From Agromyces fucosus (lineage in GTDB: Bacteria > Actinomycetota > Actinomycetes > Actinomycetales > Microbacteriaceae), in assembly GCF_004134865.1 (NCBI RefSeq), contig NZ_SDPO01000003.1, forward strand, positions 248,001 to 312,000: a DNA stretch of 64,000 bases, in the 5' to 3' direction. A program made the translations under genes and the position numbers. The notes beneath the pieces are model-generated. The model ran no database searches. It was not told where the DNA came from and saw only the letters and a program-made list of their open reading frames with translations. Below, piece after piece: positions 29,495-45,392 of the stretch (position 1 is its first letter; the number at the start of each line of letters is the position of its first letter).

Positions 29495-31777
29495 TCAGCT
29501 CGCGCGCTCGAGCACTGCACGGGTCGAGGCCTCCGGCCGCAGATCGAGGCGGCGCAGCAACTGCGCGTTCGCCGCGACGATGACGGTCGAGAGGCTCATC
29601 AGGATCGCGCCGACCGACATCGGCAGCACGAACCCGATGGGCGCGAGGATGCCCGCCGCGAGCGGCACCGACACGAGGTTGTACCCGGCCGCCCACCACA
29701 GGTTCTGCGACATCTTGCGGTAGCTCGCCCGCGACAGCTCGATGACCGAGATCACCGAACGCGGGTCCGACGACGCGAGGATCACGCCGGCGGAGGCGAT
29801 CGCGACATCTGTTCCCGCGCCGATGGCGATGCCGACGTTCGCCTGCGCGAGCGCCGGGGCGTCGTTGACGCCGTCGCCGACCATCGCGACCGAGAGGCCC
29901 TCGTGCTGCAGTTCCTGCACCTTCGCGGACTTGTCCTCGGGGCGCACGCCCGCGTAGACCCGATCGATGCCGAGCTGCGCCGCGACGGTGCGCGCCACCG
30001 GCTCGGCGTCGCCCGTGATCATGACGACCTGCACGCCGAGGGCGTGGAGTGCGTCGACCGCCTCCTTCGACTCGGGGCAGATCTCGTCGGCCAGCGCGAT
30101 GGCGCCGGCCACCTGGCCGTCGACGAGCACGTGCAGCACCGTCGAGCCGGCTTCGGCCCAGGCGACGGATGCCGCGAGCGGTTCGAGGTTCTCGCGCTCG
30201 AGCATGCCGGGGCCGCCGACCTGCACGGCCCGTCCGTCGACCGTTGCACGGACGCCGATCGCGGCGGAGGCCTCGAAGCCCTGAGCAGCGCGCGTCGCGA
30301 GTCCACGGTGCGCGGCCTCCGCGACGATCGCCTTCGCGAGGGGGTGCTCGGAGTCGCCCTCGGCGGATGCCGCGAGCACGAGCACCTCATCGAGGTCGTG
30401 ACCGGGTGCGGCCGCGGCATCCGTCACCGCCGGCTCGCCCTTCGTCAGCGTGCCGGTCTTGTCGAAGAGCACAGCGCCGACCGTGCGCATCGTCTCGAGC
30501 GCGAGGCGGTCGGTGACGAGCACGCCGCCCTTCGCCGCTCGTTCGGTCGCGATCGACACGACGAGCGGGATGGCGAGGCCGAGGGCGTGGGGGCAGGCGA
30601 TCACGAGCACGGTGATCGTGCGTATCACGGCGTCGTCGGGGTCGCCGAGTAGGGTCCACGCGATCGCGGTGATCACCGCGGCGCCGAGCGCGAACCAGAA
30701 GAGCCAACCGGCCGCGCGGTCGGCGAGGCGCTGCGCGCGGGAGGTCGACGCCTGCGCCTGCGCGACGAGGCGCTGGATTCCGGCGAGCGCGGTGTCGTCG
30801 CCGACCGCGCCGACCCGGACGCGGATCGCGGTGTCGGTCGCGACCGTGCCGGCGACGACGTGCGCGCCGGGGCCGCGAGCGACCGTCGACGACTCGCCAG
30901 TGATCATCGACTCGTCCATCGCGGCGGTGCCGTCGACGACCTCGCCGTCTGCGGGCACGCGGCCGCCGGGGCGCACGATGACGAGGTCGCCGACCGTGAG
31001 CTCGGACGGGGAGACGGTCTCGGTCGATGGCGCGCCGCTCGCCCCCTCGTGGGTCGAGCCGTTCGAGACCACTCGCTCGGCCTCGTCGGGGAGCAGCGCC
31101 GCGAGCGCGTCGAGTGCGCTCGAGGCCTGCATGATCGAGCGCATCTCGATCCAGTGACCGAGCAGCATGATCACGATGAGGAGCGCGAGCTCCCACCAGA
31201 AGTCGAGGTGGTGACTGAGGATGCCGAGGCTCGCGCCCAGCGACGCGAAGTACGCGACCGTGATGGCGAGGCCGATGAGGAGCATCATGCCGGGCTTGCG
31301 CGCCTTCAGCTCCGACCATGCGCCCGTGAGGAACGGCTTGCCGCCCCAGAAGTACATGACGGTGCCGAGCACCGGCGAGATCCACGGGATCACCGGGTTG
31401 TCGGGCAGCGAGTAGCCGAGGATCGAGGCGAACATCGGGCTGAACGCGATCGTCGGCACGGCGATCACGAGCATGATCCAGAAGAGGCGGCGGAACTGGC
31501 CGACGTGGTCGCCGTGCCCCGCGTGTCCGCCATGGCCGCCGTGCGCGCCGATGTCGTGGCCGCCGTGCCCGCTCATGTCGTGACCGGCGTGCCCGCTCAT
31601 GTCGTGCCCGGCATGCGGGTCGTGATGCGCCTGCGTGCTCATGTCGTGACCCGCGTGCGGATCGTGACCGGCGTGCTGGTCGACCGCGGAGGCCGCCTGA
31701 TGTCCCGCGTGGGGGTCGTGGTGGTCGTGGCCGGCGTGACCGTCGTGGTCGGGCCGTTCACCGTGCGTCGTGCTCAT
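29495..31777 (-). CDS. copB: CopB-type heavy-metal P-type ATPase (CPH motif)
   Basis: 760 residues. The first 95 residues hold 25 His in D-P-H-A-G-H-D / S-G-H-A-G-H-D repeats, a metal-binding tail. Eight membrane segments follow. Motifs in order: T-G-E-S, the ion-site C-P-H at residues 395-397 (A-C-P-H-A-L-G-L-A-I-P), phosphorylation site D439 in D-K-T-G-T-L-T-K-G-E-P, H-P-L-A-K-A-I and G-D-G-V-N-D-A-P-A-L. CPH in place of CPC is the mark of P1B-3 ATPases that export Cu(II)/Cu(I) or Ag. A CsoR-like box stands 40 bases before the start. Confidence 0.95.
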   Translation of the reverse strand: MSTTHGERPDHDGHAGHDHHDPHAGHQAASAVDQHAGHDPHAGHDMSTQAHHDPHAGHDMSGHAGHDMSGHGGHDIGAHGGHGGHAGHGDHVGQFRRLFWIMLVIAVPTIAFSPMFASILGYSLPDNPVIPWISPVLGTVMYFWGGKPFLTGAWSELKARKPGMMLLIGLAITVAYFASLGASLGILSHHLDFWWELALLIVIMLLGHWIEMRSIMQASSALDALAALLPDEAERVVSNGSTHEGASGAPSTETVSPSELTVGDLVIVRPGGRVPADGEVVDGTAAMDESMITGESSTVARGPGAHVVAGTVATDTAIRVRVGAVGDDTALAGIQRLVAQAQASTSRAQRLADRAAGWLFWFALGAAVITAIAWTLLGDPDDAVIRTITVLVIACPHALGLAIPLVVSIATERAAKGGVLVTDRLALETMRTVGAVLFDKTGTLTKGEPAVTDAAAAPGHDLDEVLVLAASAEGDSEHPLAKAIVAEAAHRGLATRAAQGFEASAAIGVRATVDGRAVQVGGPGMLERENLEPLAASVAWAEAGSTVLHVLVDGQVAGAIALADEICPESKEAVDALHALGVQVVMITGDAEPVARTVAAQLGIDRVYAGVRPEDKSAKVQELQHEGLSVAMVGDGVNDAPALAQANVGIAIGAGTDVAIASAGVILASSDPRSVISVIELSRASYRKMSQNLWWAAGYNLVSVPLAAGILAPIGFVLPMSVGAILMSLSTVIVAANAQLLRRLDLRPEASTRAVLERAS

Positions 31778-31974: not shown

Positions 31975-32973
31975 ATGGACATCCTGATTCTCGGTGGCAC
32001 GCAGTGGCTCGGCCGCGAACTCGCCAAGGAGGCGCTGCGGCGCGGGCACGCCGTCACCTCGCTCGCGAGAGGCGAGGCGGGGGCGGTGGCCGAGGGGTCG
32101 ACATTCGTGGCGGCCGATCGCTCGAAGCCCGACGCCTACGACGCCGTCACGGATCGCGAGTGGGACGCCGTCATCGACGTGACCCGGCAGCCGGGCTTCG
32201 CGCGCCGAGCGGCCGAGGACCTGGCGCCGCACGCGGCCCATTGGACCTTCATCTCCTCCTGCAACGTCTATGCAGCGCAGAACGAGCCCGGCGCCGACGA
32301 GTCGGCCGAGCTCATGGCGCCGCTCGCGGCCGACGAGTCGACGGCGGAGACCTATGGCGAGGCGAAGTCCGCCATCGAGTCGGCATATCGTGACGCGCTC
32401 GGCGACCGGCTGCTCGTGATCCGCCCGGGTCTCATCGTCGGCCCCGGCGACGCCTCGGGTCGCGGCGGCTACTGGGTTGCGCGTGCTGCCCGGAGTGACG
32501 AGCCCATGCTCGTCCCCGACATCCTCGACGACGCCGTGCAGGCGATCCACGTCGACGACCTCGTGACGTTCACGATCGATGCCGTCGAGCGCCGGCTCAC
32601 CGGGGCGTTCAACGCGGTCGGCGAGCCCACGACGTTCGGCGACTGGCTCGAGCGCTCGCGCGCCCTCGCCGGACACGAGGGCGAGGTCGTCGCCGTCTCG
32701 CCCGCGTGGCTCGCCGAACAGGGGGTCGCCGAATGGTCGGGCCCCGAGTCGCTCCCGCTCTGGATCATCGACCCCGAATGGAGGGCCTTCCTCGACCGGT
32801 CGAACGCCGCGGCGCTCGCGGCGGGCCTGCGCCTGCGTCCGCTCGACCAGCTGCTGCAGGAGATCCTCGACTGGGAGCGCAGCGAGGGACTCGAGCGCGA
32901 GCGCGGCGCCGGGCTCAGCGCTGAACGCGAGCGCGAGCTGCTCGCGGCGCTCCGCGGCCCGTCGATCGAGTAG
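31975..32973 (+). CDS. NAD-dependent epimerase/dehydratase family protein
   Basis: 332 residues from ATG 31975. Rossmann motif I-L-I-L-G-G-T-Q-W-L-G near residues 3-13, then W-T-F-I-S-S-C-N-V-Y-A, the T-Y-G-E-A-K-S-A-I-E active-site Tyr-x3-Lys, and R-P-G-L-I-V-G-P-G-D. Extended short-chain dehydrogenase/reductase of the atypical type. Soluble. Substrate unknown. A dyad GTCCGGTATCGCAGAC just after its stop belongs to the next gene. Confidence 0.85.
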   Translation: MDILILGGTQWLGRELAKEALRRGHAVTSLARGEAGAVAEGSTFVAADRSKPDAYDAVTDREWDAVIDVTRQPGFARRAAEDLAPHAAHWTFISSCNVYAAQNEPGADESAELMAPLAADESTAETYGEAKSAIESAYRDALGDRLLVIRPGLIVGPGDASGRGGYWVARAARSDEPMLVPDILDDAVQAIHVDDLVTFTIDAVERRLTGAFNAVGEPTTFGDWLERSRALAGHEGEVVAVSPAWLAEQGVAEWSGPESLPLWIIDPEWRAFLDRSNAAALAAGLRLRPLDQLLQEILDWERSEGLERERGAGLSAERERELLAALRGPSIE

Positions 32974-32980
32974 CGACACC

Positions 32981-32996
32981 GTCCGGTATCGCAGAC
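32981..32996 (+). promoter_or_regulatory. hut-type 16-bp operator before the arginase-family gene
   Basis: GTCCGGTATCGCAGAC, 56 bases before the ATG at 33052. Fourteen of 16 positions agree with the sites at 40371-40386 (read on the minus strand) and fifteen with 43712-43727, both next to hut genes. Confidence 0.7.
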
Positions 32997-33051
32997 ACGA
33001 GTGGTGACGGATGCCTCGGCTCGCGGCATCCGTCGTTGCTACCGTCTGACC

Positions 33052-33984
33052 ATGGGAACCGCTGCGCTTCCGAACGATCCGCTCTGGCCTCGGGCCGGCG
33101 ACTGGCCGCCGCTCGACGCGCTCGACCCGGGGGAGCGCGCCGATCTCGCCCTCGTCGGCGTGCCGGCGTTCAGCACCTCGCTCTCGCCGACCGGCGCGCA
33201 CGCGACGCCCGCGGCGATCCGCGCGGCGCTGCGCCGCTACAGCCCGACGCTCATGGCCGACCGCGGTCGCCGGAGCGATGCGCGTTCACTCGACGACCTC
33301 GTGGTCGTCGACGCCGGCGACGTCGCCGAGCCCGACGGTCCCGAGGGCGAGGCGCGGGTGCGTGCCGCGGTCGCCGCAGCAGCGTCCCGTGCCGGCGCCG
33401 TCGTCGCGCTCGGCGGCGACAACTCCCTGACCTCGCCCGTGGCGCTCGGCGTCTGGGGCGATCGGCTCGCCACGGCCGGGCTCATCACGCTCGACGCGCA
33501 CTACGACCTGCGCGACGGCGTGAGCAACGGCTCGCCCGTGCGCCGGCTGCTCGAAGCCGGCCTCGACGGCCGCCGCGTCGTGCAGATCGGCATCGCGGAC
33601 TTCGTGAACTCCCGCGAGTACGCCGATCGCGCCCGCGACGCCGGCATCACGGTCGTGCATCGCGACGAGCTGCACCGCCGCCCGATGGACGAAGTGTTCG
33701 CCGAGGCGCTCGAGATCGCGGGTGCCGGCGGCGGGCCGATCCACGTCGACCTCGACGTCGACGTGTGCGACCGCGCGGTGGCGCCGGGGTGCCCCGCTTC
33801 GGTGCCCGGCGGCCTCTCGGCGTGGGAGCTGCGGCAGGCCGCGCGGGCGGCGGGAGCCGATCCGCGGGTGGAATCGATCGACCTCGCCGAGGTGGACGCC
33901 ACGGCCGACGCCGCCGACGGCCGCACCGTTCGGCTCGCCGCGCTCTGCGTGCTGGAGGTCGCTGCGGGAATCGCCCTACGCTGA
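33052..33984 (+). CDS. hutG: arginase-family enzyme, probable formimidoylglutamase
   Basis: 310 residues from ATG 33052. Arginase-fold metal motifs: G-G-D-N-S at residues 121-125 (Asn124 where arginases have His), D-A-H-Y-D at 148-152 and D-L-D-V-D-V-C-D at 233-240. Family members hydrolyse guanidino or formimidoyl groups with two Mn. The upstream 16-bp site shared with hutU and hutH makes N-formimidoyl-L-glutamate hydrolysis (last step of histidine breakdown to glutamate and formamide) the best guess over agmatine or arginine. Asn in the first motif may lower affinity for one Mn. A remnant of a second copy lies at 34578. Confidence 0.75.
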   Translation: MGTAALPNDPLWPRAGDWPPLDALDPGERADLALVGVPAFSTSLSPTGAHATPAAIRAALRRYSPTLMADRGRRSDARSLDDLVVVDAGDVAEPDGPEGEARVRAAVAAAASRAGAVVALGGDNSLTSPVALGVWGDRLATAGLITLDAHYDLRDGVSNGSPVRRLLEAGLDGRRVVQIGIADFVNSREYADRARDAGITVVHRDELHRRPMDEVFAEALEIAGAGGGPIHVDLDVDVCDRAVAPGCPASVPGGLSAWELRQAARAAGADPRVESIDLAEVDATADAADGRTVRLAALCVLEVAAGIALR

Positions 33985-34031
33985 CAGCGTGCCTCGATCG
34001 AGTCGCACACCCTGAACACGGGAACGGAACC

Positions 34032-34523
34032 ATGAAGACTCTCCTGCTGGTGCGGCATGCCAAATCGAGCTGGGGCGACCAGGCTCTCCCCGACCACGAA
34101 CGTCCGCTGAACCATCGGGGCCGGCGTGATGCGCCGAGGGTGGGCGAGCGACTGCGGGAGCGGGGCGTCGTTCCCGACGTGATCGTGACGAGCACTGCGG
34201 TGCGCGCCCGCTCGACGGCGGAGATCCTCGCCCGGGCGCTCGACGTCGACTCCGGCCGGATCGTGGAGGACGGCCGTCTCTACGGTGCCACTCCCGATGG
34301 CCTGCTCGAGGTCATCCGGGCCCACGACGACGAGGTGGACAGCCTCATGCTGGTCGGCCACAACCCCGAGATCGGCGATCTCGCATCGCGGCTCTCGGAC
34401 GAGGTTCCCGAGATGCCGACCTGCGCCGTCGCCGAGTTCCGTTTCGACGTCGCCGACTGGGCGGAGGTCGGCGCCGCGACGCCGGTCGAGGTGCGGTTCG
34501 AGGCTCCTGCTCACGACCGGTGA
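34032..34523 (+). CDS. SixA-like histidine phosphatase, first copy
   Basis: 163 residues from ATG 34032. The histidine-phosphatase core L-V-R-H-A-K-S-S-W near residues 6-14 gives the catalytic R-H-A; H-N-P-E near residue 115 carries the second catalytic His. Compact, without the extra domains of phosphoglycerate mutases, as in SixA. SixA removes phosphate from phosphohistidine in signalling proteins; in actinobacteria the substrate is unknown. A second homologue lies 200 bases on, at 34726, and a remnant of an arginase gene between them. Confidence 0.88.
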   Translation: MKTLLLVRHAKSSWGDQALPDHERPLNHRGRRDAPRVGERLRERGVVPDVIVTSTAVRARSTAEILARALDVDSGRIVEDGRLYGATPDGLLEVIRAHDDEVDSLMLVGHNPEIGDLASRLSDEVPEMPTCAVAEFRFDVADWAEVGAATPVEVRFEAPAHDR

Positions 34524-34577
34524 CGACACTCCGTCCGGTGCAGCGAGGGCGGTGCTCGCCACGAGAGCACCTCGCCG

Positions 34578-34668
34578 TCCATCGGCCTCGCCGGGCTCGA
34601 TGCCACCGCGGATGCGCCAGAGGGGCGTACGGTACGACTGGCGGCATTCCGCGTGCTGGAGGCCGCCG
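34578..34668 (+). pseudogene. remnant of a second arginase-family gene (C-terminal end only)
   Basis: The frame reads S-I-G-L-A-G-L-D-A-T-A-D-A-P-E-G-R-T-V-R-L-A-A-F-R-V-L-E-A-A-A-G; the end of the intact gene reads S-I-D-L-A-E-V-D-A-T-A-D-A-A-D-G-R-T-V-R-L-A-A-L-C-V-L-E-V-A-A-G. Most residues are the same over about 31 codons. The rest of the gene is absent, and the frame runs on without the original stop. It lies between the two sixA-like genes, marking a tandem duplication of an arginase-sixA unit followed by loss. Confidence 0.8.
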
Positions 34669-34725
34669 CGGGCAGGCACTGCGCCGGCAGGCGTGCGCGC
34701 GAACGGCCCGACGGAAGGACGCATC

Positions 34726-35253
34726 GTGAAGACCCTCGTGCTCATGCGACATGCGACTTCGAGCTGGGACTCGCCAGGCCTCGTCGATCACGATCGGCCG
34801 CTGAACGATCACGGCCGCGAAGACGCGCCCCGCATGGGCCGGCGACTCGTCGAACGCGGCATCGAGCCCGACGTGATCATCACGAGCACCGCCGAGCGCG
34901 CCCGGTCGACGGCCGCGCTGGTGGCAGGTCAACTCGGCACCCCCGCCCGGCGCATCATCGCCGACGAACGGCTCTACGCCGCGTCGGTCGACACGATGAT
35001 GCGCGTCATCCGCTCGCTCGACGACCGGCTCGCCGTCGCGATGCTCGTCGGACACAATCCCGAGATGACCGAGCTCGCGACCCGCTTCTCGAAGACCGCC
35101 GAGGCCATGTCGACGGCGGCGATCGCCGTCTTCACCTTCGATACGGCCTCGTGGGCCGATGTGCGCACGACGCCGAGCGCGGGCAGGGCCGCGGCGGCGC
35201 CGGTCGGCGTGACGTTCGACGCCCCCGACCGGTCGCACGACCGGAACCGGTGA
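34726..35253 (+). CDS. SixA-like histidine phosphatase, second copy
   Basis: 175 residues from GTG 34726 with GGAAGGAC upstream. Paralogue of the gene at 34032: L-M-R-H-A-T-S-S-W, D-H-D-R-P-L-N-D-H-G-R-E-D-A-P-R, I-T-S-T-A-E-R-A-R-S-T-A and L-V-G-H-N-P-E-M-T-E match it closely. An Ala/Pro-rich insert precedes the final strand. Catalytic residues intact, so probably active. Product of the same tandem duplication that left the arginase remnant between them. Confidence 0.88.
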   Translation: MKTLVLMRHATSSWDSPGLVDHDRPLNDHGREDAPRMGRRLVERGIEPDVIITSTAERARSTAALVAGQLGTPARRIIADERLYAASVDTMMRVIRSLDDRLAVAMLVGHNPEMTELATRFSKTAEAMSTAAIAVFTFDTASWADVRTTPSAGRAAAAPVGVTFDAPDRSHDRNR

Positions 35254-35301
35254 CAGCCGCCTCCTGCGTCGCTAGTGTCGATGCCAACGGGAGGGAGCGC
35301 C

Positions 35302-35892
35302 ATGTCGTTCATCACCAGGGGATTCAGCGGGCGCAGCCGTGATCGCGACGATCGGCTTCCACCCGGCCAGACGCTCGTGCCCGATTTCCCGGTGCTGTCG
35401 GCGGGGCCGACGCCCGAGGTCGACACCGCGGAGTGGGAGTTCACGATCCGCACCGAGTCGGGCGTGCACCGGTGGAACTGGGACGAGTTCATGGCCCTCG
35501 CGATCGAGGACGTCGACACCGACATCCATTGCGTCACGCACTGGTCGAAGCTCGGCACGAATTGGCGCGGCGTCTCGCTCGACACCCTCTTCGAACACGT
35601 CGAGACGGAGCGGGAGTTCGTCATGGCGCACAGCTACGGCGGCTACACGACCAACGTGCCCCTCGATGAGCTGCTCGGCGGCAAGGCGTGGGTCGCGTTC
35701 GAGTTCGACGGCGAACCGCTCGAGCCCGAGCACGGCGGGCCGGCCCGGTTGCTCGTGCCGCACCTCTACTTCTGGAAGAGCGCGAAGTGGGTGCGCGGAC
35801 TCCTGATGATGGACGAGGACGAGCCAGGATTCTGGGAGCAGAACGGCTACCACCTCCACGGGGACCCGTGGACCGAGGAGCGCTACTGGTGA
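35302..35892 (+). CDS. molybdopterin-dependent oxidoreductase (sulfite-oxidase fold)
   Basis: 196 residues from ATG 35302, with GGGAGGGAGC before it. The sulfite-oxidase-type Mo domain shows D-I-H-C-V-T-H-W-S-K-L-G near residue 75; the Cys is the expected Mo ligand. Then W-R-G-V-S-L, A-H-S-Y-G-G-Y-T-T-N-V-P-L and Y-F-W-K-S-A-K-W-V-R-G, as in MsrP (YedY)-type enzymes. No signal peptide, so cytosolic. Its TGA overlaps the GTG of the flavin reductase gene (GTGA), suggesting the reductase feeds it electrons. Substrate unknown. Confidence 0.88.
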   Translation: MSFITRGFSGRSRDRDDRLPPGQTLVPDFPVLSAGPTPEVDTAEWEFTIRTESGVHRWNWDEFMALAIEDVDTDIHCVTHWSKLGTNWRGVSLDTLFEHVETEREFVMAHSYGGYTTNVPLDELLGGKAWVAFEFDGEPLEPEHGGPARLLVPHLYFWKSAKWVRGLLMMDEDEPGFWEQNGYHLHGDPWTEERYW

Positions 35893-36743
35893 GCGAGGCC
35901 GTCGCCCAGAGGCCGGAATCGAATGCCCCGTCGGCGGTGCCGCCAAGCGCCGCGCTGCGTGCGGTGCCCCGCTCGGGCTGGCACGTCGCGACCGTCGCGT
36001 CGACGCGCCGCGAGACGCCGAACGCGTCACGCCTCGAGCTCGACGTCGACGGATGGCCCGGCAACGCCGCCGGACAGCATCTCGATGTGCGGCTCACCGC
36101 ACCCGACGGCTACACGGCGACCCGCTCGTACTCGATTGCATCGTCGGGCACCGGCACCCGCGTCACCCTCGCGGTCGACAAGCTGCCCGACGGCGAGGTC
36201 TCGCCGTATCTCGTCGACGAGGTGCGCGGCGGTGACATGCTCGAGGTGCACGGACCGCTCGGCGCATTCTTCGTGTGGGCACCGGATGCCGCGGCAGCGG
36301 GCGACTCGGACGGCGACGACACCGGCGGCCCCACGGCAGGAACCCGGCCCGTGCAGCTCATCGCGGGCGGCTCGGGCGTCGTGCCGCTGTTCGCGATGGC
36401 CGCGGCCCACGGTGCGGTCGCCGATTCGACGCCGTTCCGCCTGCTCTACTCGGTCCGGAGCCCCGACGACGTCTACTTCGCCGACGAGTTGCAGCGGCTC
36501 GCCGAGGCATCCGCACCGTTGCGACTCGACCTCGTCTACACGCGCCGCGCACCCGACGGATGGCCGTCGTCACCGGCGCGCATCACTCGAGAGGTGCTCG
36601 AGACGGCCGTGATCCCGGCGGCCGAGCGGCCGCGGGTCTTCGTCTGCGGGTCGACCGGCTTCGTCGAGCGCGTCGCCGACTGGCTCGTCGAGCTGGGCCA
36701 TGATGCACGGTCGATCCGCACCGAGCGATACGGAGGCACCTGA
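35889..36743 (+). CDS. FAD/NAD(P)-dependent reductase of the ferredoxin-reductase family
   Basis: 284 residues from GTG 35889. The FAD-binding barrel shows T-R-S-Y-S-I-A-S-S near residue 85; the NAD(P) part has I-A-G-G-S-G-V-V-P-L-F-A-M near 165 and V-F-V-C-G-S-T-G-F at the end. No 2Fe-2S domain. The first 30 residues are Pro/Ser-rich. Coupled to the Mo enzyme before it and to the DUF6510 gene after it by overlapping stop/start codons, so the three probably form one electron-transfer unit. Confidence 0.88.
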   Translation: MSEAVAQRPESNAPSAVPPSAALRAVPRSGWHVATVASTRRETPNASRLELDVDGWPGNAAGQHLDVRLTAPDGYTATRSYSIASSGTGTRVTLAVDKLPDGEVSPYLVDEVRGGDMLEVHGPLGAFFVWAPDAAAAGDSDGDDTGGPTAGTRPVQLIAGGSGVVPLFAMAAAHGAVADSTPFRLLYSVRSPDDVYFADELQRLAEASAPLRLDLVYTRRAPDGWPSSPARITREVLETAVIPAAERPRVFVCGSTGFVERVADWLVELGHDARSIRTERYGGT

Positions 36744-37018
36744 TGGAGCATGTCGACGGCAACGCCCTGGCGGGTCCGCTCGCGGAGTTCTTCAGCTTCG
36801 ACGCGACCACCGCGACGGCGCGATGCAACGGGTGCGGTGCGATCGGCGAGCTCGCCCGCGCGATGGTCTACCGCAGCGGCGCCGGCACCGTGGTGCGCTG
36901 CAGCAGCTGCGACCACGTGCTCGCCACCCTCGTCGAGACCGCCGGGCGCGCCTGGATCGGCCTCAGCGGCATCAGTGCGATCGAGGTGCCCCGGGGCCCA
37001 GCCACATCGTCGGGGTGA
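36743..37018 (+). CDS. DUF6510 zinc-ribbon protein
   Basis: 91 residues, one-base overlap (TGATG) with the reductase gene. Two Cys pairs, C-N-G-C and C-S-S-C, 33 residues apart, with the sheet M-V-Y-R-S-G-A-G-T-V-V-R between, form a likely zinc ribbon. This DUF6510 layout is typical as the third gene after a sulfite-oxidase-like and a flavin reductase gene in actinobacteria. Cytosolic. Whether it binds Zn or an Fe-S cluster and acts in maturation or electron transfer is unknown. Confidence 0.85.
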   Translation: MEHVDGNALAGPLAEFFSFDATTATARCNGCGAIGELARAMVYRSGAGTVVRCSSCDHVLATLVETAGRAWIGLSGISAIEVPRGPATSSG

Positions 37019-37020
37019 CC

Positions 37021-37314
37021 ATGTGGATCGGCTGGATCGAGTTCGACGTGCTGCTCGGCGACGTGCACTCGCTGAAGGGCAAGCGCGCCGTCATCCGGCC
37101 GATCATGGCCGAGTTGCGGCGCACGACCGAGGCGAGTGTGGCGGAGGTCGGCGAACAGGACCTGCATCGTCGCACGGTCATCGGACTCGGCGTGGTCTCG
37201 TCCGCGCCCGACCGGGTGACCGAGACGCTCGACCGGGCTGAACGGCTCGTCGCCGATCGGCCCGAGGTCACGTTGCTCTCGACCCGGCGCGGCCTGCATC
37301 GCAGCGACGACTGA
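37021..37314 (+). CDS. DUF503 (YlxP-like) protein
   Basis: 97 residues from ATG 37021; a GTG six bases earlier overlaps the DUF6510 stop and is an alternative. M-W-I-G-W-I-E-F-D-V-L-L-G-D-V-H-S-L-K-G-K-R-A-V-I-R-P-I and V-A-E-V-G-E-Q-D-L-H-R-R-T-V-I-G identify the DUF503/YlxP family, small ferredoxin-fold proteins often near ribosome-maturation genes but here next to the Mo-enzyme trio. Function unknown; possibly RNA-binding. Confidence 0.9.
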   Translation: MWIGWIEFDVLLGDVHSLKGKRAVIRPIMAELRRTTEASVAEVGEQDLHRRTVIGLGVVSSAPDRVTETLDRAERLVADRPEVTLLSTRRGLHRSDD

Positions 37315-37329
37315 GTGGATGCCCCGGCG

Positions 37330-38628
37330 TCAGCCCGACGCGACGACCGCGCCGTCCTTCCAGACGCGTGAGATGAGCGGCACCCCGGGCCGGTAGGCGA
37401 GGTGAACGTGGCTCGGCGCCGAGAGCTCGACGAGGTCGGCGCGCATGCCGGGGCGGATCGCACCGACATCCGTTCGCCGCAGCGCGAGGGCACCGCCCGC
37501 GGTCGACGCCCAGACCGCCTCGGCCGGGGTCATGCCCATGTCGCGCACGGCGACGGCGATGCAGAACGGCAGCGAGCTCGTGAAGCTCGAGCCCGGGTTG
37601 CAGTCGCTCGCGAGCGCGACGGTGACGCCGGCCTCGATGAGGCGTCGGGCGTCGGGGTAGGGCTGCCGCGTCGAGAACTCGACGCCCGGCAGCAGGGTCG
37701 CCACGGTATCGGATGACGCGAGCGCCGCGACATCCGCATCGCTCAAGTAGGTGCAGTGGTCGACCGACGCGGCGCCGAGTTCGACCGCGAGCTGGACGCC
37801 CGGCCCTTCGCCGAGCTGGTTGCCGTGCACCCGAACGCCGAGTCCGGCAGCCGCCCCGGCCTCGAGCACGCGTCGCGACTGCTCGGCGGTGAAGGCGCCG
37901 CGCTCGCAGAAGGCGTCGACCCAGCGCGAGTGCGGGGCGCACGCGTCGAGCATCTCGCCCACGACGAGGTCGACGTACGTCTCGGCGGCTTGATCGGCGT
38001 CGCCGCCGAACGCAGGGTCCTCGCGGAACTCGAACGGCACGACGTGCGCGCCGAGGAACGTCACCTCGGAGGTGACCTCGTGGGCGAGCCGTACGAGCCG
38101 TTCCTCGTCAGCGACCGAGAGGCCGTAGCCCGACTTGATCTCGAAGGTCGTCGTGCCCTGCGCGTGCAGCTCGGCGACGAATCCGGCGAGCCGCGCTCGC
38201 AGCTCGTCGTCGCTCGCGGCTCGCGTCGCCGCAACCGTCGAGCGGATGCCGCCGGCTTCGTACCGCTGCCCGGCCATGCGGGCGGCGAACTCCGCCGCGC
38301 GGTCGCCGCCGAAGACGAGGTGCGAATGGCTGTCGACGAAGCCGGGGATGACGGCCCGGCCGCCGGCGTCGACGACCTCGACGTCGGCGTCCCACAGCGA
38401 GCGGTGCTCGTCGCCGTCGCGCCGGTCTTCGCGTTCGACCCGGTGACCGAGGCGCTCGTCGGCGTGCGTGGCGGTGCCGACCCACGCGATGCGTCCGTCT
38501 TCGACGAGCACGGCGGCGTCACGCACGATGCCGAGCAGGCCCGCCTCGCGATCGGGCGACGGGTCGTTCGTGATGAGCTCGCCGATGCCGGTCAGCAGCA
38601 TGCGCCCGGCGGCGCCCCCGTCGCTCAT
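37330..38628 (-). CDS. hutI: imidazolonepropionase
   Basis: 432 residues from ATG 38626-38628, which overlaps the hutU stop (ATGA). Hydrolyses 4-imidazolone-5-propionate to N-formimidoyl-L-glutamate, third step of histidine degradation. Amidohydrolase metal motif [11 protein letters not shown] near residues 78-88, then [15 protein letters not shown] and H-G-N-Q-L, and S-D-C-N-P-G-S near the end. Cytosolic, zinc or iron. Second gene of the hutUI operon; the 16-bp operator lies before hutU. Confidence 0.95.
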
Positions 38629-40316
38629 GCCTCGAGCATAGGCACGCGCAGGCCGCGCTCGCGAGCGACCTCGACCGCTCGGTCGTACCCGGCGTCGACG
38701 TGGCGCATGACCCCGGTGCCAGGGTCGTTCACGAGCACGCGCGCGATCTTCTCGGCGGCGAGCTCGGTGCCGTCGGCGACGATGACCTGTCCGGCGTGGA
38801 TCGAACGCCCGATGCCGACGCCGCCGCCGTGGTGGATCGAGACCCACGTCGCACCCGACGCCGTGTTCAGCAGGGCGTTCAGGAGCGGCCAGTCGGCGAT
38901 CGCGTCGGAGCCGTCGGCCATGGACTCGGTCTCGCGATATGGGCTCGCCACGGATCCCGAGTCGAGGTGGTCGCGACCGATCGCGACCGGGGCACTGAGC
39001 TCGCCCGAGGCGACCATCTCGTTGAACTTCAACCCGGCGAGGTGACGCTCCTGGTAGCCGAGCCAGCAGATGCGCGCCGGCAGGCCCTCGAAGTGCACCT
39101 TCTCACCGGCCTGGGTGATCCAGCGGCGGAGGTGCTCGTCGTCGGGGAAGAGCTCGAGGATCGCCCTGTCGGTCGCGGCGATGTCGGCGGGGTCGCCCGA
39201 GAGCGCCGCCCAGCGGAACGGCCCCTTGCCCTCGGCGAAGAGGGGCCGGATGTAGGCGGGCACGAAGCCGGGGAACTCGAACGCACGGTCGTACCCGCCG
39301 AGCTCTGCTTCGCGGCGGATCGAGTTGCCGTAGTCGAAGACCTCGGCACCGGCGTCCTGGAATCCCACCATCGCTGCCACCTGCTTGGCCATGCTGCCTC
39401 GCGCACGATCGGTGAACCCCTCGGGGTCGCGCTCGGCCTCGGCGCGCCAGTCCTCGAATGCGACGCCGACCGGCAGGTACGCGAGCGGGTCGTGGGCGCT
39501 CGTCTGGTCGGTCACGATGTCGACCTGCAGCTCTCCGGCGCGGTGGCGCAGGAGCAGGTCGCCGAAGATCAGGGCGGCATTGCCGACGACGCCCACCGAG
39601 AGGGCCTCGCCAGCCGCCTTCGCGGCGGTGACACGCGTGATCGCCGCCTCCAGGTCGGTGGTGTACTCGTCGAGGTAGCCGTGCTCGACGCGGCGGGCCA
39701 GCCGCGTCTCGTCGACGTCGACGATGAGCACCGCCCCGCCGTTCATGGTGACGGCGAGCGGCTGCGCGCCGCCCATGCCGCCGCAGCCGCCCGTGAGGGT
39801 CAGCGTGCCGGCGAGCGTGCCGTCGAACGACGCGCGCGCGATCGCGCCGAACGTCTCGTACGTGCCCTGCAGGATGCCCTGCGTGCCGATGTAGATCCAC
39901 GAGCCGGCCGTCATCTGGCCGTACATCGTGAGGCCCTGCTGCTCGAGCTTGCGGAACTCGGGCCACGTCGCCCAATCGCCCACGAGGTTCGAGTTGGCGA
40001 TGAGCACGCGGGGCGCCCACTCGTGCGTGCGGAACACGCCGACGGGCTTGCCCGATTGCACGAGCAGCGTCTCATCGGACTCGAGGCCTTCGAGCGTGCG
40101 CACGATCGCGTCGAAGGACTCCCAGTTGCGGGCGGCCTTGCCCGTGCCGCCGTAGACGATGAGGTCCTCTGGCCGCTCGGCGACCTCGGGGTCGAGGTTG
40201 TTCATGAGCATGCGCAGCGGCGCCTCGGTCTGCCAGCTCTTGGCGGTGAGCTCGGTGCCGCGGGCGGCCCGAACCGTGCGGGGGCCGGCGGGGGCTGCGA
40301 TGGGTGCGTCGGTCAT
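38625..40316 (-). CDS. hutU: urocanate hydratase
   Basis: 563 residues from ATG 40314-40316; a start six codons earlier is possible but lies closer to the operator. Adds water to urocanate to give 4-imidazolone-5-propionate. Strong family signs: [11 protein letters not shown] near residue 60, [14 protein letters not shown] (NAD site), [13 protein letters not shown] and the terminal [12 protein letters not shown]+-dependent, cytosolic. Leads the hutUI operon. The 16-bp dyad at 40371-40386 lies 54 bases upstream. Confidence 0.97.
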
Positions 40317-40370
40317 GCTCCGATGCTCGCGCACCGCGCGGTCACCGACAACGGATGTCGCGAGCGTGCT

Positions 40371-40386
40371 GTCTGGGATACCAGAC
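40371..40386 (-). promoter_or_regulatory. hut-type 16-bp operator before hutU
   Basis: GTCTGGGATACCAGAC on the + strand, a perfect dyad with arms of six and a GATA centre. Read in the direction of hutU it is GTCTGGTATCCCAGAC. Matches sites at 32981 and 43712. Probable binding site for the IclR-type regulator. Confidence 0.75.
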
Positions 40387-40451
40387 GAGTGCGAGCGCGC
40401 CCGACGAACAGTTGCGGGTCGAGCCTGTCGGAACCCGGTTCCGGGAGAGCC

Positions 40452-41942
40452 TCAGCCGAGCTGGATGCCGCGGGCCGCCATGAACGGCACGGCGTCGACG
40501 GCGGTGCCGTCGAGTCGCACCTCGAAGTGCAGGTGGCAGCCGGTCGACGCGCCGGTGCTGCCGACGGCCCCGATGAGCTGACCCGCCGCAACCGCGTCCC
40601 CGGGACTGACGAGGATGCCGCCGTCGGAGAGGTGCGCGTACCCGGTCTGCACGCCTGCGCCGTGCTCGAGCAGGATCCAGTTGCCGTAGCTGCCGTTCGC
40701 GCGGGCTTCGACGACGATGCCGCCGGTCGCGGCGAAGACGGGCGAGCCGCAGCTCGCCGCGACATCCGTGCCGCGGTGGAAGTCGTTCACGCCGGCGAGG
40801 GGCTTGTTCGGCCGGGGGCCGAATCCGTCGGTCTGGTTTCCGGAGACCGGGGGGGCCCAGCCCTGCTCGCTCAGCTGCCCGGCATCGCGCGGGAGCGAAT
40901 CGATCAGCGAGACGCTCGTCGAAGCCACGCGCGTGCGCAGGCCGGAGAGGTCGGAACGAGCGGATGCCACGGCGCGCTCGGCTGCGGCCACCGCAGCCTG
41001 TGCCGCCTCGACCGGCACCGCGTCGACGGCGGCCCACGCCTCGGCGGCGCGCTCCTCTGCGACGTCGGCTTCCGCCGAGCGCTTCTCGGCGATCTTCTGC
41101 AGCTTCTCGGCGTCGCCGGTGATCTGGTCGACGCGGGCCACGCCGCCGAGGCCGGCGAGCAGGTCTTTGCCGGAGCCGAAGGCCGCGGCCATGGACGTGA
41201 GCGAGCTGTCGCCGCCGCGCGAGGCGGCGAAGGCGGCCGCGCCGGCTGCATCGGCGTCGGCGCGGGCCTCGACGGCCTGCTCCTGCAGTTGCGTCGCCAG
41301 CGCCCGGGCCTCGATGCGCGTCGACTGTGCGGCGTCGAACTCCGCCTCAGCGGTGCGGAGTGCTGCGGTCGCCCGATCGAGGGCGGTGCGGGCGCCGAGC
41401 AGCGAACTGAGCTGCGGGTCGCTGCCGCTCGAGATGCGCGCGTACGGGCCGCTGCCGACGAGCAGCGAGGCGCCGGGGCTCGCGACCGGGGCGGAGGGGG
41501 CCGGCGGCTGCGCCGGAGTCCCCGTCGTCGGCGGCGGCGTCGTGGCCGGCGGGTCGGTGGGCGTCGGGGTGGGAGTGGGCGTCGGGGTCGGCTCGGGGGT
41601 CGGCGTCGGCGTGGGCGTCTCGGTCGGCGTCGGCGTCGGTTCGGGCGTCGGCTCCGGGGTCGGCTCGGAAGTGGGTTCGGGTGTCGGCTCCGGTGTGGGT
41701 TCGGGCGCCGGTTCGGTCGCCTCCCCGGTCGTGTCGGCCGTCGTGTCGGTGGTGTCGGCGGTGGTCTCCGAGGTCGTCGCCGCCGTCTCGGTCGCGACGA
41801 TCTCCTCTGCCGATGCCGTGGTGATGCCGGAGATGCCCAGCACGACGACGGCTGCCGCGGCGGCCAGGGCGAGCCCATCGGGGCGAGCGCGACGCACTCG
41901 GGACGGGTGGTGCAGGCCGGGCACTCGTTGCATCATCGACAT
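40452..41942 (-). CDS. M23-family cell-wall peptidase with coiled coil
   Basis: 496 residues. Signal peptide to about residue 44 (ends T-A-S-A). Then a Thr/Glu- and Pro-rich spacer with P-T-P-E-P-T repeats (residues about 75-145), an Ala/Glu-rich coiled coil (about 170-340) and a C-terminal M23/LytM domain with H-R-G-T-D-V-A-A near residue 385 and G-C-H-L-H-F-E-V near 472, the zinc-binding His residues. Exported peptidoglycan endopeptidase of the EnvC/NlpD or RipC type. It sits inside the hut cluster but no hut-type box is seen before it. Confidence 0.92.
   Translation of the reverse strand: MSMMQRVPGLHHPSRVRRARPDGLALAAAAAVVVLGISGITTASAEEIVATETAATTSETTADTTDTTADTTGEATEPAPEPTPEPTPEPTSEPTPEPTPEPTPTPTETPTPTPTPEPTPTPTPTPTPTDPPATTPPPTTGTPAQPPAPSAPVASPGASLLVGSGPYARISSGSDPQLSSLLGARTALDRATAALRTAEAEFDAAQSTRIEARALATQLQEQAVEARADADAAGAAAFAASRGGDSSLTSMAAAFGSGKDLLAGLGGVARVDQITGDAEKLQKIAEKRSAEADVAEERAAEAWAAVDAVPVEAAQAAVAAAERAVASARSDLSGLRTRVASTSVSLIDSLPRDAGQLSEQGWAPPVSGNQTDGFGPRPNKPLAGVNDFHRGTDVAASCGSPVFAATGGIVVEARANGSYGNWILLEHGAGVQTGYAHLSDGGILVSPGDAVAAGQLIGAVGSTGASTGCHLHFEVRLDGTAVDAVPFMAARGIQLG
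41555..41720 (-). repeat. Pro-Thr/Glu spacer repeats
   Basis: Short repeats of GTCGGC(G/T)(T/C) type on the + strand, coding Pro-Thr-Pro-Glu/Thr in the M23 peptidase. Likely a cell-wall spacer. Confidence 0.7.
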
Positions 41943-42066
41943 AGGGTTCCGTTCAGACGCCGGCTTCGGGGGCCGACATCTCCCTCAGTCTCTCAGCGCA
42001 GGCAGGTCGACACAACACCTGAACGCGTCGATCTCGCACCCTGTTCGGGGCACACGTGGGCCCGGC

Positions 42067-43656
42067 TCAGTCGAGCGCGCCCGTCGCCGACGTCGCCGCG
42101 ACGACGATCCGGCCGTGTTCCACGAGGTCCGAGATCGCCTCGATCTCGGGGGAGAGGAAGCGATCGGGCCCCGGCACCGCACCGGTCTCGGCGACGAGCG
42201 AGACGACCGCTGCGGTCGCCGCGCCGGGCACGAGCGGTGCCCGCAACGCGAGGCCGCGGGCCGCGGTCATGACCTCGATCGCGAGCACGCGGGAGAGGCC
42301 GTCGATCGAACGCCGCAGCTTCCGCGCGGCCGCCCAGCCCATCGAGACGTGGTCCTCCTGCATCGCCGACGACGGGATCGAGTCGACGGATGCCGGCACC
42401 GCGAGCCGCTTCAGCTCGGAGACGATGCCTGCGGCGGTGTACTGGGCGATCATGAGACCCGAGTCCACGCCGACCTCGTGCGCGAGGAAGGGTGGCAGGC
42501 CCTGGTTGCGCGCGCGGTCGAGGAACCGGTCGGTGCGGCGCTCGCTCATCGACGCGACATCCGCCACGCCGATCGCGAGGAAGTCGAGCACGTAGGCGAC
42601 CGGGGCGCCGTGGAAGTTGCCGTTCGACTCGACGCGGCCGTCGAGCGTGAGCACGGGGTTGTCGACGGCGCTCGCGAGTTCGGCGTCGGCGACGGATGCC
42701 GCGTGCGCGAGCGTGTCGCGTGCGGCGCCGTGCACCTGGGGGGCGCAGCGGAGCGAATAGGCGTCCTGCACGCGCGTGCATTCGGGGCCCTTGTGGCTCT
42801 CGACGATGGGCGAGCCGGCCAGCAGGCGCCGCAGGTTCGAGGCGGAGATCGCCTGGCCGCGCTGCGGGCGGAGCGCGTGCAGGTCGGCGGCGAAGACGGC
42901 GTCGGTGCCCATGAGTCCCTCGACGCTCATCGCCGCGGCGATGTCTGCGGTGGTGAGGAGCATCCGCAGGTCGTCGATCGCGAGGGCCAGCATGCCGAGC
43001 ATGCCGTCGGTGCCGTTGATGAGGGCGAGACCCTCCTTCTCGGCGAGGCGGAGCGGCGTGATGCCCGCGGCGGCGAGGGCGCTCGCGGCATCCGTCGTTT
43101 CGCCGACCCCTCCGGTCGAGCCCGTCGATACGCGGACCTCGCCCTCGCCCATCGCGACGAGCGCGCAGTGCGCGAGGGGGGCGAGGTCGCCGGAGCATCC
43201 GAGCGATCCGTACTCGCGCACGACCGGCGTGATGCCGGCGTTGAGGATCGCCGCGTACGTCTCCGCAGTCTCGCGGCGCACGCCCGTGCGGCCGGTCATG
43301 AGGGTCGAGAGGCGCAGCAGCATGAGGGCGCGCACGACCTCGCGTTCGACCTCGGCGCCCGAACCCGCGGCGTGCGAGCGCACGAGGCTCGCCTGCAGCT
43401 GGGCGCGGCGGTCCTCGGCGATGAACGTGGTGGCGAGTGCGCCGAAGCCCGTGGAGATGCCGTAGTGCGGCTCGGGGTCGGCCGCGAGTCCCTCGACGAT
43501 CTCGCGGCTCGCGGCCACGCCGTCGAGCGCTGCGGGGTCGAGCACGACGGATGCCCCGTGGCGGGCCACCGCGACGACGTCGTCGATGCCGAGGGGGCCG
43601 GTGCCGACGGTGACGGATGCCGCGGCGCGCGCGGGGGCGGAGTCGTTGCTGCTCAT
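42067..43656 (-). CDS. hutH: histidine ammonia-lyase
   Basis: 529 residues from ATG 43654-43656. Removes ammonia from L-histidine to give urocanate, first step of the pathway. The MIO-forming segment reads Y-G-S-L-G-C-S-G-D-L-A-P-L-A-H, with C154-S155-G156 in place of the usual Ala-Ser-Gly. Other family signs are H-Y-G-I-S-T-G-F-G near residue 60, E-G-L-A-L-I-N-G-T, Q-D-A-Y-S-L-R-C-A-P-Q-V-H-G and N-G-N-F-H-G-A-P. Separate transcript from hutUI, divergent from the IclR regulator across the shared operator. Confidence 0.96.
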   Translation of the reverse strand: MSSNDSAPARAAASVTVGTGPLGIDDVVAVARHGASVVLDPAALDGVAASREIVEGLAADPEPHYGISTGFGALATTFIAEDRRAQLQASLVRSHAAGSGAEVEREVVRALMLLRLSTLMTGRTGVRRETAETYAAILNAGITPVVREYGSLGCSGDLAPLAHCALVAMGEGEVRVSTGSTGGVGETTDAASALAAAGITPLRLAEKEGLALINGTDGMLGMLALAIDDLRMLLTTADIAAAMSVEGLMGTDAVFAADLHALRPQRGQAISASNLRRLLAGSPIVESHKGPECTRVQDAYSLRCAPQVHGAARDTLAHAASVADAELASAVDNPVLTLDGRVESNGNFHGAPVAYVLDFLAIGVADVASMSERRTDRFLDRARNQGLPPFLAHEVGVDSGLMIAQYTAAGIVSELKRLAVPASVDSIPSSAMQEDHVSMGWAAARKLRRSIDGLSRVLAIEVMTAARGLALRAPLVPGAATAAVVSLVAETGAVPGPDRFLSPEIEAISDLVEHGRIVVAATSATGALD

Positions 43657-43711
43657 GCCTCCGATTCCACACCGCCCCCACGCGCGCGGGAAGCGCGTGG
43701 ACTCGGAAGCC

Positions 43712-43727
43712 GTCCGGTATCCCAGAC
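43712..43727. promoter_or_regulatory. hut-type 16-bp operator between hutH and the IclR gene
   Basis: GTCCGGTATCCCAGAC, dyad with one mismatch. Lies 56 bases from the hutH start and 92 from the IclR start in the divergent region 43657-43818. Confidence 0.75.
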
Positions 43728-43818
43728 TCGCGCGGTACGCTCGCCTCACACTCCAAACCTCAGCTCACACTCCACACCTCACCCTCACCCGACCCGACTC
43801 GAATCGAGATGGCAGAAG

Positions 43819-44643
43819 ATGTCGGAATCCATCGCCCGGAGCGACAACACGCGTCATCTCGATACGCTCGACCGCTCGAAGGTGCCCGCGGCCGACCAGA
43901 CGCTCGCGATCCTCACCCACCTCGCGGCGCAGCGCGGGCCCGTGCCGGCAGCGACGATCGCCGCAGCGCTCGGCATTCCGCGCTCGACGGTCTACCACCT
44001 GCTGGCCGTCATGCAGGAGCGCGGTTTCGTCGTGCACCTGCCCGAAGAACGCCGCTACGGGCTCGGGATCGCCGCCTTCGAGCTCTCGAGCGGCTTCTCC
44101 CGACAGCAGCCGCTCGCCCGCCTCGGCCGGCCGCTCGTCGCGGCGCTCGTCGACCGGCTCGGGGAGAGCGGGCACCTCGCGGTGCTCCACGGGCGCGACG
44201 TGCTCTACCTCGTCGAGGAGCGCGCCCCGAGACGCCCCTCGCTCGTGACCGACGTCGGGGTGCGGCTGCCCGCGCACCTCACCGCCACCGGCAGGGCGAT
44301 GCTCGCCGTGCTGCCCCCCGCGCAACTCCGGGCCCTCTACCCAGACGCGGCTGCGTTCGCGGGACGCGCCGCGCTCGACGGCGCCGAGCACGTGTGGAGC
44401 TACGGGCGCCTGAAGCGCGTGCTCGCCGTCGTGCGCGAGCAGGGCTGGGCCGGTGAAGACGGCGAGGTCACGGGCGGTCTCGCCTCGGTCGGGTCGGTCG
44501 TGCTCGACCACGTCGGCTGGCCGGCTGCGGCGATCGCGGTGACGTACCCGGATGCCGCGCCCGAGACGGAGGTCGCCCGGTACGTGTCGGCGGTGCAGGA
44601 GGCGGCCACGACGCTCGCTCGCCGCATCGGCACCCCGCGCTGA
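43819..44643 (+). CDS. IclR-family regulator, probable hut regulator
   Basis: 274 residues from ATG 43819. Winged helix at residues about 25-85 (A-D-Q-T-L-A-I-L-T-H-L, I-A-A-A-L-G-I-P-R-S-T-V-Y-H-L-L-A-V-M-Q-E-R-G-F-V), then the IclR effector domain with L-P-A-H-L-T-A-T-G-R-A-M-L. Divergent to hutH. It probably binds the three 16-bp sites and senses urocanate or a related compound (inference). Residues 8-17 (S-D-N-T-R-H-L-D-T-L) are coded by a 20-base sequence also found in the hairpin at 11405-11424. Confidence 0.88.
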   Translation: MSESIARSDNTRHLDTLDRSKVPAADQTLAILTHLAAQRGPVPAATIAAALGIPRSTVYHLLAVMQERGFVVHLPEERRYGLGIAAFELSSGFSRQQPLARLGRPLVAALVDRLGESGHLAVLHGRDVLYLVEERAPRRPSLVTDVGVRLPAHLTATGRAMLAVLPPAQLRALYPDAAAFAGRAALDGAEHVWSYGRLKRVLAVVREQGWAGEDGEVTGGLASVGSVVLDHVGWPAAAIAVTYPDAAPETEVARYVSAVQEAATTLARRIGTPR

Positions 44644-44738
44644 GTCACGGCGCCCAGCTTCCGTCCAACCGGCGCCGGTAGCGTGAAGCCGCCGCCGAGC
44701 ACCGATCATCGACCCCGACCGAGAGCCGAGACACGACC

Positions 44739-45392
44739 TTGCTGACGACTGCCGCCGACCACGGTTTCACCGGCCTCACCGGATTCGCCGCCGACGTGCT
44801 GAACTCCCTCGGGGACGTCGGCGTCGGGGTGCTCGTCTTCCTCGAGGTGCTGATCCCGCCGATCCCGAGCGAGGTCATCCTGCCGTTCGCGGGCTACCTC
44901 AGCCAGTCGGGCGACCTCCACCTCGGGATGCTCATCCTCTGGTCGACCCTCGCCTCCGTCGTCGGGGCGCTCGTGCTCTACGGGCTCGGCGCAGCGGTCG
45001 GCCTGGCACGCGCCATCCGCTGGATCGCGTGGACGCGTCTCGTGAGTCTCACCGACCTCGAACGGGGCGCGGAGTGGTTCCATCGGCACGGCCGCTGGTC
45101 GGTGCTCGTGGGGCGCATGATCCCCGGAGTCCGCAGCCTGATCTCGCTGCCTGCCGGGGCCGATCGCATGCCGCTCCTCTCCTTCTGCCTCTTCACCGCC
45201 CTCGGCTCGGGCCTCTGGAACACGCTGCTCATCGGCGTCGGCGCAGCGCTCGGCACCCAGCACGCACTGCTCGAGGAGTACCTGCAGTACCTCGATTGGG
45301 TCGTCTACGGCGCGATCGCGGTCGCCCTCGCGGTGCTCGTCATCCGCCGAATCCTCGAGCACCGGCGCGTGGTCGACGAAGCATCGGCGTAA
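44739..45392 (+). CDS. DedA-family membrane protein
   Basis: 217 residues; the start is TTG at 44739. Motifs of the DedA/VTT fold: E-V-L-I-P-P-I-P-S-E-V-I-L-P-F-A-G-Y-L and F-H-R-H-G-R-W-S-V-L-V-G-R-M-I-P-G-V-R-S-L-I-S-L-P-A-G, then the C-terminal W-N-T-L-L. About four membrane-associated segments. DedA proteins move polyprenyl-phosphate or phospholipids across the membrane in bacteria and keep the proton gradient. Alone on its transcript. Confidence 0.93.
   Translation: MLTTAADHGFTGLTGFAADVLNSLGDVGVGVLVFLEVLIPPIPSEVILPFAGYLSQSGDLHLGMLILWSTLASVVGALVLYGLGAAVGLARAIRWIAWTRLVSLTDLERGAEWFHRHGRWSVLVGRMIPGVRSLISLPAGADRMPLLSFCLFTALGSGLWNTLLIGVGAALGTQHALLEEYLQYLDWVVYGAIAVALAVLVIRRILEHRRVVDEASA

Follow-up and report, generated by a model that had tools for sequence, protein, structure and literature searches.

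Predicted HutR operators at a near-fixed distance from the start codons of separated histidine-utilisation units in Agromyces fucosus and its relatives

Introduction

How might a catabolic pathway whose genes lie apart still be controlled as one? The question is raised by a stretch of 64,000 nucleotides from Agromyces fucosus (contig NZ_SDPO01000003.1 of assembly GCF_004134865.1, positions 248,001 to 312,000; here called the window, with positions counted from its first letter), in which the histidine-utilisation (hut) genes are divided among separate units. A preliminary description of this DNA had proposed that a site of 16 base pairs (bp), present at three hut promoters, makes these genes a regulon of an IclR-family protein whose gene adjoins the third copy. 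We find that this proposal is supported: the motif corresponds to that published for HutR, an IclR-family regulator, and is conserved at the hut gene starts of relatives. In addition, the site-to-start spacing measured here, which the preliminary description overlooked, is near-fixed on the catabolic side. We consider it probable that the three sites are operators of the HutR encoded beside the third of them, which would most likely activate hutG, hutUI and hutH and limit hutR.

Results

Operator sites in the window and genome

The four-enzyme pathway HutH-HutU-HutI-HutG is complete in the window, and each predicted hut transcription unit of this genome carries one site: before hutG, before hutU, and in the region between the divergent genes hutH and hutR. 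The features concerned are as follows.

32981..32996, plus strand: predicted HutR operator of hutG, GTCCGGTATCGCAGAC (window and genome scan)
33040..33045, plus strand: predicted -10 box of hutG, TACCGT, 6 bases 5' of the ATG, without a clear -35 (from the sequence and relatives)
33052..33984, plus strand: hutG, formimidoylglutamase of the arginase superfamily, ATG at 33052 (profile and structure matches)
37330..38628, minus strand: hutI, imidazolonepropionase (profile match)
38625..40316, minus strand: hutU, urocanate hydratase (profile match)
40323..40328, minus strand: predicted -10 box of hutU, GAGCAT, 17 bases from the -35 (conserved columns +43 to +48)
40346..40351, minus strand: predicted -35 box of hutU, TTGTCG (conserved columns +20 to +23)
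40371..40386, minus strand: predicted HutR operator of hutUI, GTCTGGTATCCCAGAC (window and genome scan)
40452..41942, minus strand: M23 peptidase gene, between hutH and hutU (profile match)
42067..43656, minus strand: hutH, histidine ammonia-lyase, ATG at 43656 (profile match)
43664..43669, minus strand: predicted -10 box of hutH, TGGAAT (similar element in relatives)
43712..43727, plus strand: predicted HutR operator common to the divergent hutH and hutR, GTCCGGTATCCCAGAC (scans)
43819..44643, plus strand: hutR, IclR-family regulator with HTH_IclR and IclR_C domains (profile match)

All three sites match the consensus exactly and are identical to one another at 14 of 16 positions, confirming the preliminary description down to the coordinates. 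They are the only zero-mismatch matches in the window, where allowing up to three mismatches yields seven matches against 2.0 expected, a number reached in one of 100 shuffles. Across the 4.0-Mb genome, no other place has zero or one mismatch and three other places have two; the earlier statement that there is no fourth copy is thus valid genome-wide, in the sense that no other place has fewer than two mismatches. The dyad form that had been ascribed to the sites is good in the hutU site, in which seven of the eight pairs form, but weaker in the hutH/hutR site (6/8) and the hutG site (5/8). Similarly, hutG is indeed detached from the core cluster, but by 3.3 kb (hutG stop to hutI stop) rather than 4 kb; no operator-like inverted repeat was found between hutG and hutI.

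HutH, HutU and HutI score above the NCBIfam cut-offs. For HutG, TIGR01227 (formimidoylglutamase) is the best NCBIfam family and the best among the arginase-superfamily models listed, with a nearly full-length match whose 141.8 bits fall under the 229.15-bit cut-off; the closest solved chain, 3m1r, is a formimidoylglutamase. Because the genome gives no match to the models for hutF (TIGR02022) or N-formylglutamate deformylase (TIGR02017), hutG is likely to encode the last step of the pathway. The closest named hutG loci, at 90-91% identity, are those of Agromyces cerinus, Agromyces sp. Root81 and A. subbeticus. The hutI ATG overlaps the hutU stop codon (ATGA), so hutU and hutI are probably one unit. 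The product of hutR, which is divergent from hutH, matches PF09339 and PF01614 above cut-off.

Relation to the published HutR motif

For HutR of Corynebacterium resistens, an IclR-family member, Table 1 of PMC8222616 gives the motif GTCTGWWATWCCAGAC; this comparative study of IclR-family regulators credits the motif to Schroder et al. 2012 and to its own analysis. The hutG, hutU and hutH sites differ from the motif as tabulated at three, two and three of 16 positions (13, 14 and 13 matched). Because the differences are so few, the window motif is, at the level of sequence, the known HutR motif, and the preliminary description named the right type of regulator. To the extent covered by the available text of PMC8222616 and PMC3350403, the HutR regulon of C. 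resistens DSM 45100 resembles the present one both in having an IclR-family regulator encoded with hutH, hutU, hutI and hutG (the hut cluster of that genome includes hutR; PMC3350403) and in its 16-bp dyad, of which 13-14 of 16 positions are shared with the window sites. It differs in that the Agromyces genes form several units that each have a site, hutG lying 3.3 kb off and hutU behind the M23 peptidase gene. Our regulator is linked to the C. resistens protein by adjacency, motif and class-wide homologues. The same study, in its available part, places HutR in one motif-type group with PcaU, PobR, MhpR and GenR, which are likewise of the IclR family but serve aromatic pathways and have other motif sequences.

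Conservation among relatives

The preliminary description had named lack of conservation before orthologous genes as grounds for abandoning its proposal; the motif proved to be conserved for hutH, for separated hutU, and for the hutG of Agromyces, Leifsonia and Leucobacter. Allowing four mismatches, the published motif occurs in 176 of 312 regions upstream of hutG, hutU, hutH or hutR, a set in which a few regions are copies from the window genome and in which hutH and hutR regions often have a common site, versus 7/312 for the reversed pattern. The relaxed pattern GTCYGNNATNNCRGAC has 107 exact matches in 1.61 Mb (80 named hutG-centred loci), and 105 of these fall in the interval from 200 bp before the start of a hut gene to 20 bp into it, with none for the reversed pattern. 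Across the genus (60 genomes, counting that of the window) it has at least 190 matches versus four for the reversed control, with at least one match in 59 of the 60. Finally, an operator was called in 121 of 128 divergent hutR-hutH loci by a loose rule that fires in 247 of 2560 shuffles.

Three loci (L089, L108 and L238) have two operator copies before hutH instead of one. In six loci of family f33 (L173, L175, L176, L179, L181 and L182), HutR-like proteins of 57-63% identity are encoded in stretches that, as fetched, yield no match to hutH, and allowing up to four mismatches revealed no operator within about 3.7 kb. Among the matches listed, 12 non-hut regions were considered as extra members of the regulon and rejected: all 12 sites overlap open frames of at least 150 amino acids and look like background. 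Such overlap is weak evidence in G+C-rich DNA; neither a transporter gene nor any other was taken into the regulon.

Spacing between operator and start codon

The bases separating site from ATG in the window number 55 for hutG, 54 for hutU, 55 for hutH and 91 for hutR. When sites were picked regardless of their distance, 112 of 129 hutH loci (9.2 expected), 16 of 28 hutU loci (1.8) and 24 of 39 hutG loci (1.5) had an in-frame start codon 54-55 bp downstream. By genus groups, in which named and coded genera were counted apart, the same held for 66/74, 5/12 and 8/11, respectively. These counts cover non-redundant rows of at least 50% identity with an intact 5' end, at least 100 bp upstream and a candidate start, and the hutU set takes in those hutU genes immediately following hutH for which the loose rule called a site. 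An earlier count, from which copies of the window's own genome and pattern-search loci were excluded, used a search range of 50-60 bp, which favours 54-55, and was therefore set aside; several loci scored there as operator-less show a site or a variant by eye. Spacings of 54-56 bp also occur in other families of the class.

Between site and start, aligned rows (67 for hutH, 17 for hutU and 38 for hutG, leaving out copies from the window's genome and near-identical rows) have conserved columns at +20 to +22 (TTG; T20, T21 and G22 at hutU, T20 also at hutH) and, at hutH and hutU, at +43 to +48 (T43, A47 and T48). Read as hexamers, these -35-like and -10-like columns are 17 bp apart, with the start codon at +55 or +56; at hutG, many relatives have the box TAGCGT or TACCGT. 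The conserved boxes imply leaderless starts. If transcription does begin at the start codon, the operator would be centred near -63, upstream of the -35 region, and this position suggests an activator. In class-I-type activated promoters, the activator site is fixed near -61, upstream of the -35, and some regulators of the PcaU, PobR, MhpR and GenR type bind near -60 as activators. The primary HutR work of Schroder et al. 2012 is said to place HutR sites upstream of mapped promoters. We did not meet the near-fixed geometry in the literature searched, a search that did not take in that paper or a 2012 review of hut regulation.

On the hutR side, candidate starts, which were sought from the operator onward, range from -13 to +112 in 49 divergent loci, and column +1 alone is conserved. 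At ten of the 49, nine from Microbacterium and L111, this search turned up just one candidate start, an ATG within the operator itself (L092, L098, L101, L104, L106, L107, L111, L113, L116 and L117). This lack of fixed spacing and the overlapping placement suggest that hutR is autorepressed. As a positional argument, then, the near-fixed spacing at hutH, hutU and hutG fits with their activation, and the loose, overlapping placement at hutR with its autorepression.

Sites at separated hutU and hutG

Whether hutU has a site of its own follows its position. In the 57 usable hutU starts of 81 loci (the 80 named loci and the window), and taking as a site any sequence within four mismatches of the published motif that lies 20-150 bp 5' of the start, no site was found where hutU is directly behind hutH (0/35), versus 20 of 22 where it is separated, that is, with other genes between, elsewhere, or with hutH absent from the fetched stretch. 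The two misses, L090 and L114, are both from Leucobacter, and one has a match with five mismatches. The M23 peptidase gene separates hutH from hutU in the seven Agromyces loci showing both genes, the window included, and three Microbacterium loci with a separated hutU have the site there too. The M23 peptidase of the window (40452-41942, minus strand), encoded on the same strand as hutH and hutU, has a long stretch rich in Thr, Pro and Glu.

As for hutG, a site precedes it in 21 of the 22 loci from Agromyces, in 8 of the 10 from Leifsonia and in all 11 from Leucobacter; in Leucobacter, the hutG start adjoins the divergent hutH and the region is common to both. Of nine loci from other or unassigned genera, four have it and five do not.

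Other features of the window

Between hutG and hutI lie two tandem similar genes (34032-34523 and 34726-35253, plus strand), whose proteins begin MKTLLLVRHAKSS and VKTLVLMRHATSS and presumably resemble SixA-type phosphohistidine phosphatases. They are followed by a molybdopterin-binding oxidoreductase gene and then an FAD/NAD reductase frame (35275-36743, plus strand), before which the window scan found no HutR site. A P-type ATPase (29495-31777, minus strand) has an N-terminal stretch of about 90 residues rich in His, Gly and Asp, which is probably metal-binding. No RNA element in the window matched Rfam, and no consensus terminator was found within 32500-45000.

Discussion

From the sites, their conservation, their spacing and the hutU rule, all of which are read from sequence, we infer binding, activation, leaderless starts, a ligand and autorepression as follows. 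A HutR dimer would bind the 16-bp dyad, which at hutG, hutUI and hutH would be centred some 63 bp 5' of the predicted start of transcription, beyond the -35 region, in promoters that seem to begin at the start codon. There, HutR would most likely activate by contact with RNA polymerase while bound to an intermediate of the histidine pathway; the inducer in hut systems is usually urocanate. As for hutR itself, the site would be near or over the promoter or the start region of this divergent gene, where HutR would most likely limit its own expression.

Several observations weigh against this account. The spacing counts include related genomes and, by genus group, some genera twice. No -10 column is strongly prominent at hutG, the hutG and hutH of the window are without a clear -35, and a consensus-promoter scan of 32500-45000 found no sigma-70-like promoter. 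With up to four mismatches allowed, there is no site at L171, where a hutH match is present, nor at the hutR loci of the six f33 members and L185, all without a hutH match. At hutG, the site was found in none of the 15 Microbacterium loci, nor in the loci of Cellulosimicrobium (4), Isoptericola (3), Occultella (3) and Aurantimicrobium (3). Given this presence and absence by genus, the hutG site is lineage-specific. In 10 of the 15 Microbacterium loci, a TAnCGT box can be seen by eye shortly 5' of the hutG start, so that hutG seems to keep its promoter there without HutR.

Could HutR instead be a classical repressor, which would bind the same sites when free of inducer, block the promoters, and be released by urocanate or histidine? 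The IclR family holds repressors, activators and dual regulators, as stated in the available part of PMC8222616, and where the site lies relative to hutR is consistent with repression of that gene. A further precedent is HutC of Pseudomonas, like HutR a local regulator of the same pathway, which represses hut according to the available text of PMC12977541, but which belongs to another protein family (GntR). On the catabolic side, however, about 19 bp lie between the end of the operator and the -35-like columns downstream of it, and 42-43 bp between that end and the -10-like columns, at a nearly fixed spacing. Activators commonly sit at such an upstream, near-fixed position, which is uncommon for simple steric repression; we regard general repression, the main rival, as rather unlikely, and activation by HutR as the better account of the catabolic side.

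It is far less probable still that the sites belong to another regulator, for instance of nitrogen or carbon metabolism, and that the adjoining IclR gene is incidental. Some loci that encode HutR-like proteins indeed have neither a hutH match nor a site; against this stand the fit to the C. resistens motif as published in PMC8222616, the operators called at nearly all divergent hutR-hutH loci (121/128), and the fact that, in the 80 loci, just two of 107 pattern sites are not near a hut start. That the three sites are a resemblance due to chance or to a repeat element hardly deserves credence: the relaxed pattern does match elsewhere in the genus, with the 12 places examined among the matches listed all overlapping open frames of at least 150 amino acids, but the rarity of the sites genome-wide, the excess over the reversed control in 60 genomes and the near-fixed placement in many genera speak against it, and the comparative counts refute it.

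A possible lead to specificity comes from the recognition helix. In some lineages, GTCTC...GAGAC replaces GTCTG...CAGAC, and a HutR with R or K at residue 60 goes with an operator base 5 other than G in 7 of 8 cases, versus 6/113 for other residues (pooled Fisher p about 2e-7). By our reading, aligned via a conserved PRST segment, residue 60 would correspond to Arg52 of TtgV, which contacts DNA directly according to Table 5 of PMC8222616. This covariation also counts among the weak points: it comprises only two changes on the tree, where it is not significant, an independent-pairs test cannot reach significance, and six H-type proteins have a C-type operator. It is kept only as a lead. Also weak is the tendency of proteins having Q at residue 60 to go with operators that bear C at position 4 in each arm (6/26 vs 3/82, p 0.006 before relatedness).

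Taken together, we hold it to be an evenly balanced proposition that (i) HutR is, across many genera of the class, an activator of fixed geometry, its dyad being centred about 63 bp before a leaderless start at the hut promoters under its control, (ii) genes departing from the operon retain or acquire a site at equal spacing, (iii) the hutG of Microbacterium, as an exception, has escaped HutR, and (iv) possibly, a change of residue 60 from H or Q to R or K goes with base 5 leaving G.

The regulon is of an already known kind, and its mode of regulation is not a new one. It extends HutR, described in one Corynebacterium, to Agromyces and many other actinobacterial genera, and would tie the detached hutG to histidine breakdown. 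It would also supply a simple rule for finding hut units and predicting their activation, namely an operator for each separated unit with the start codon 54-55 bp downstream, and it offers a clean case of an operator accompanying genes while an operon breaks up.

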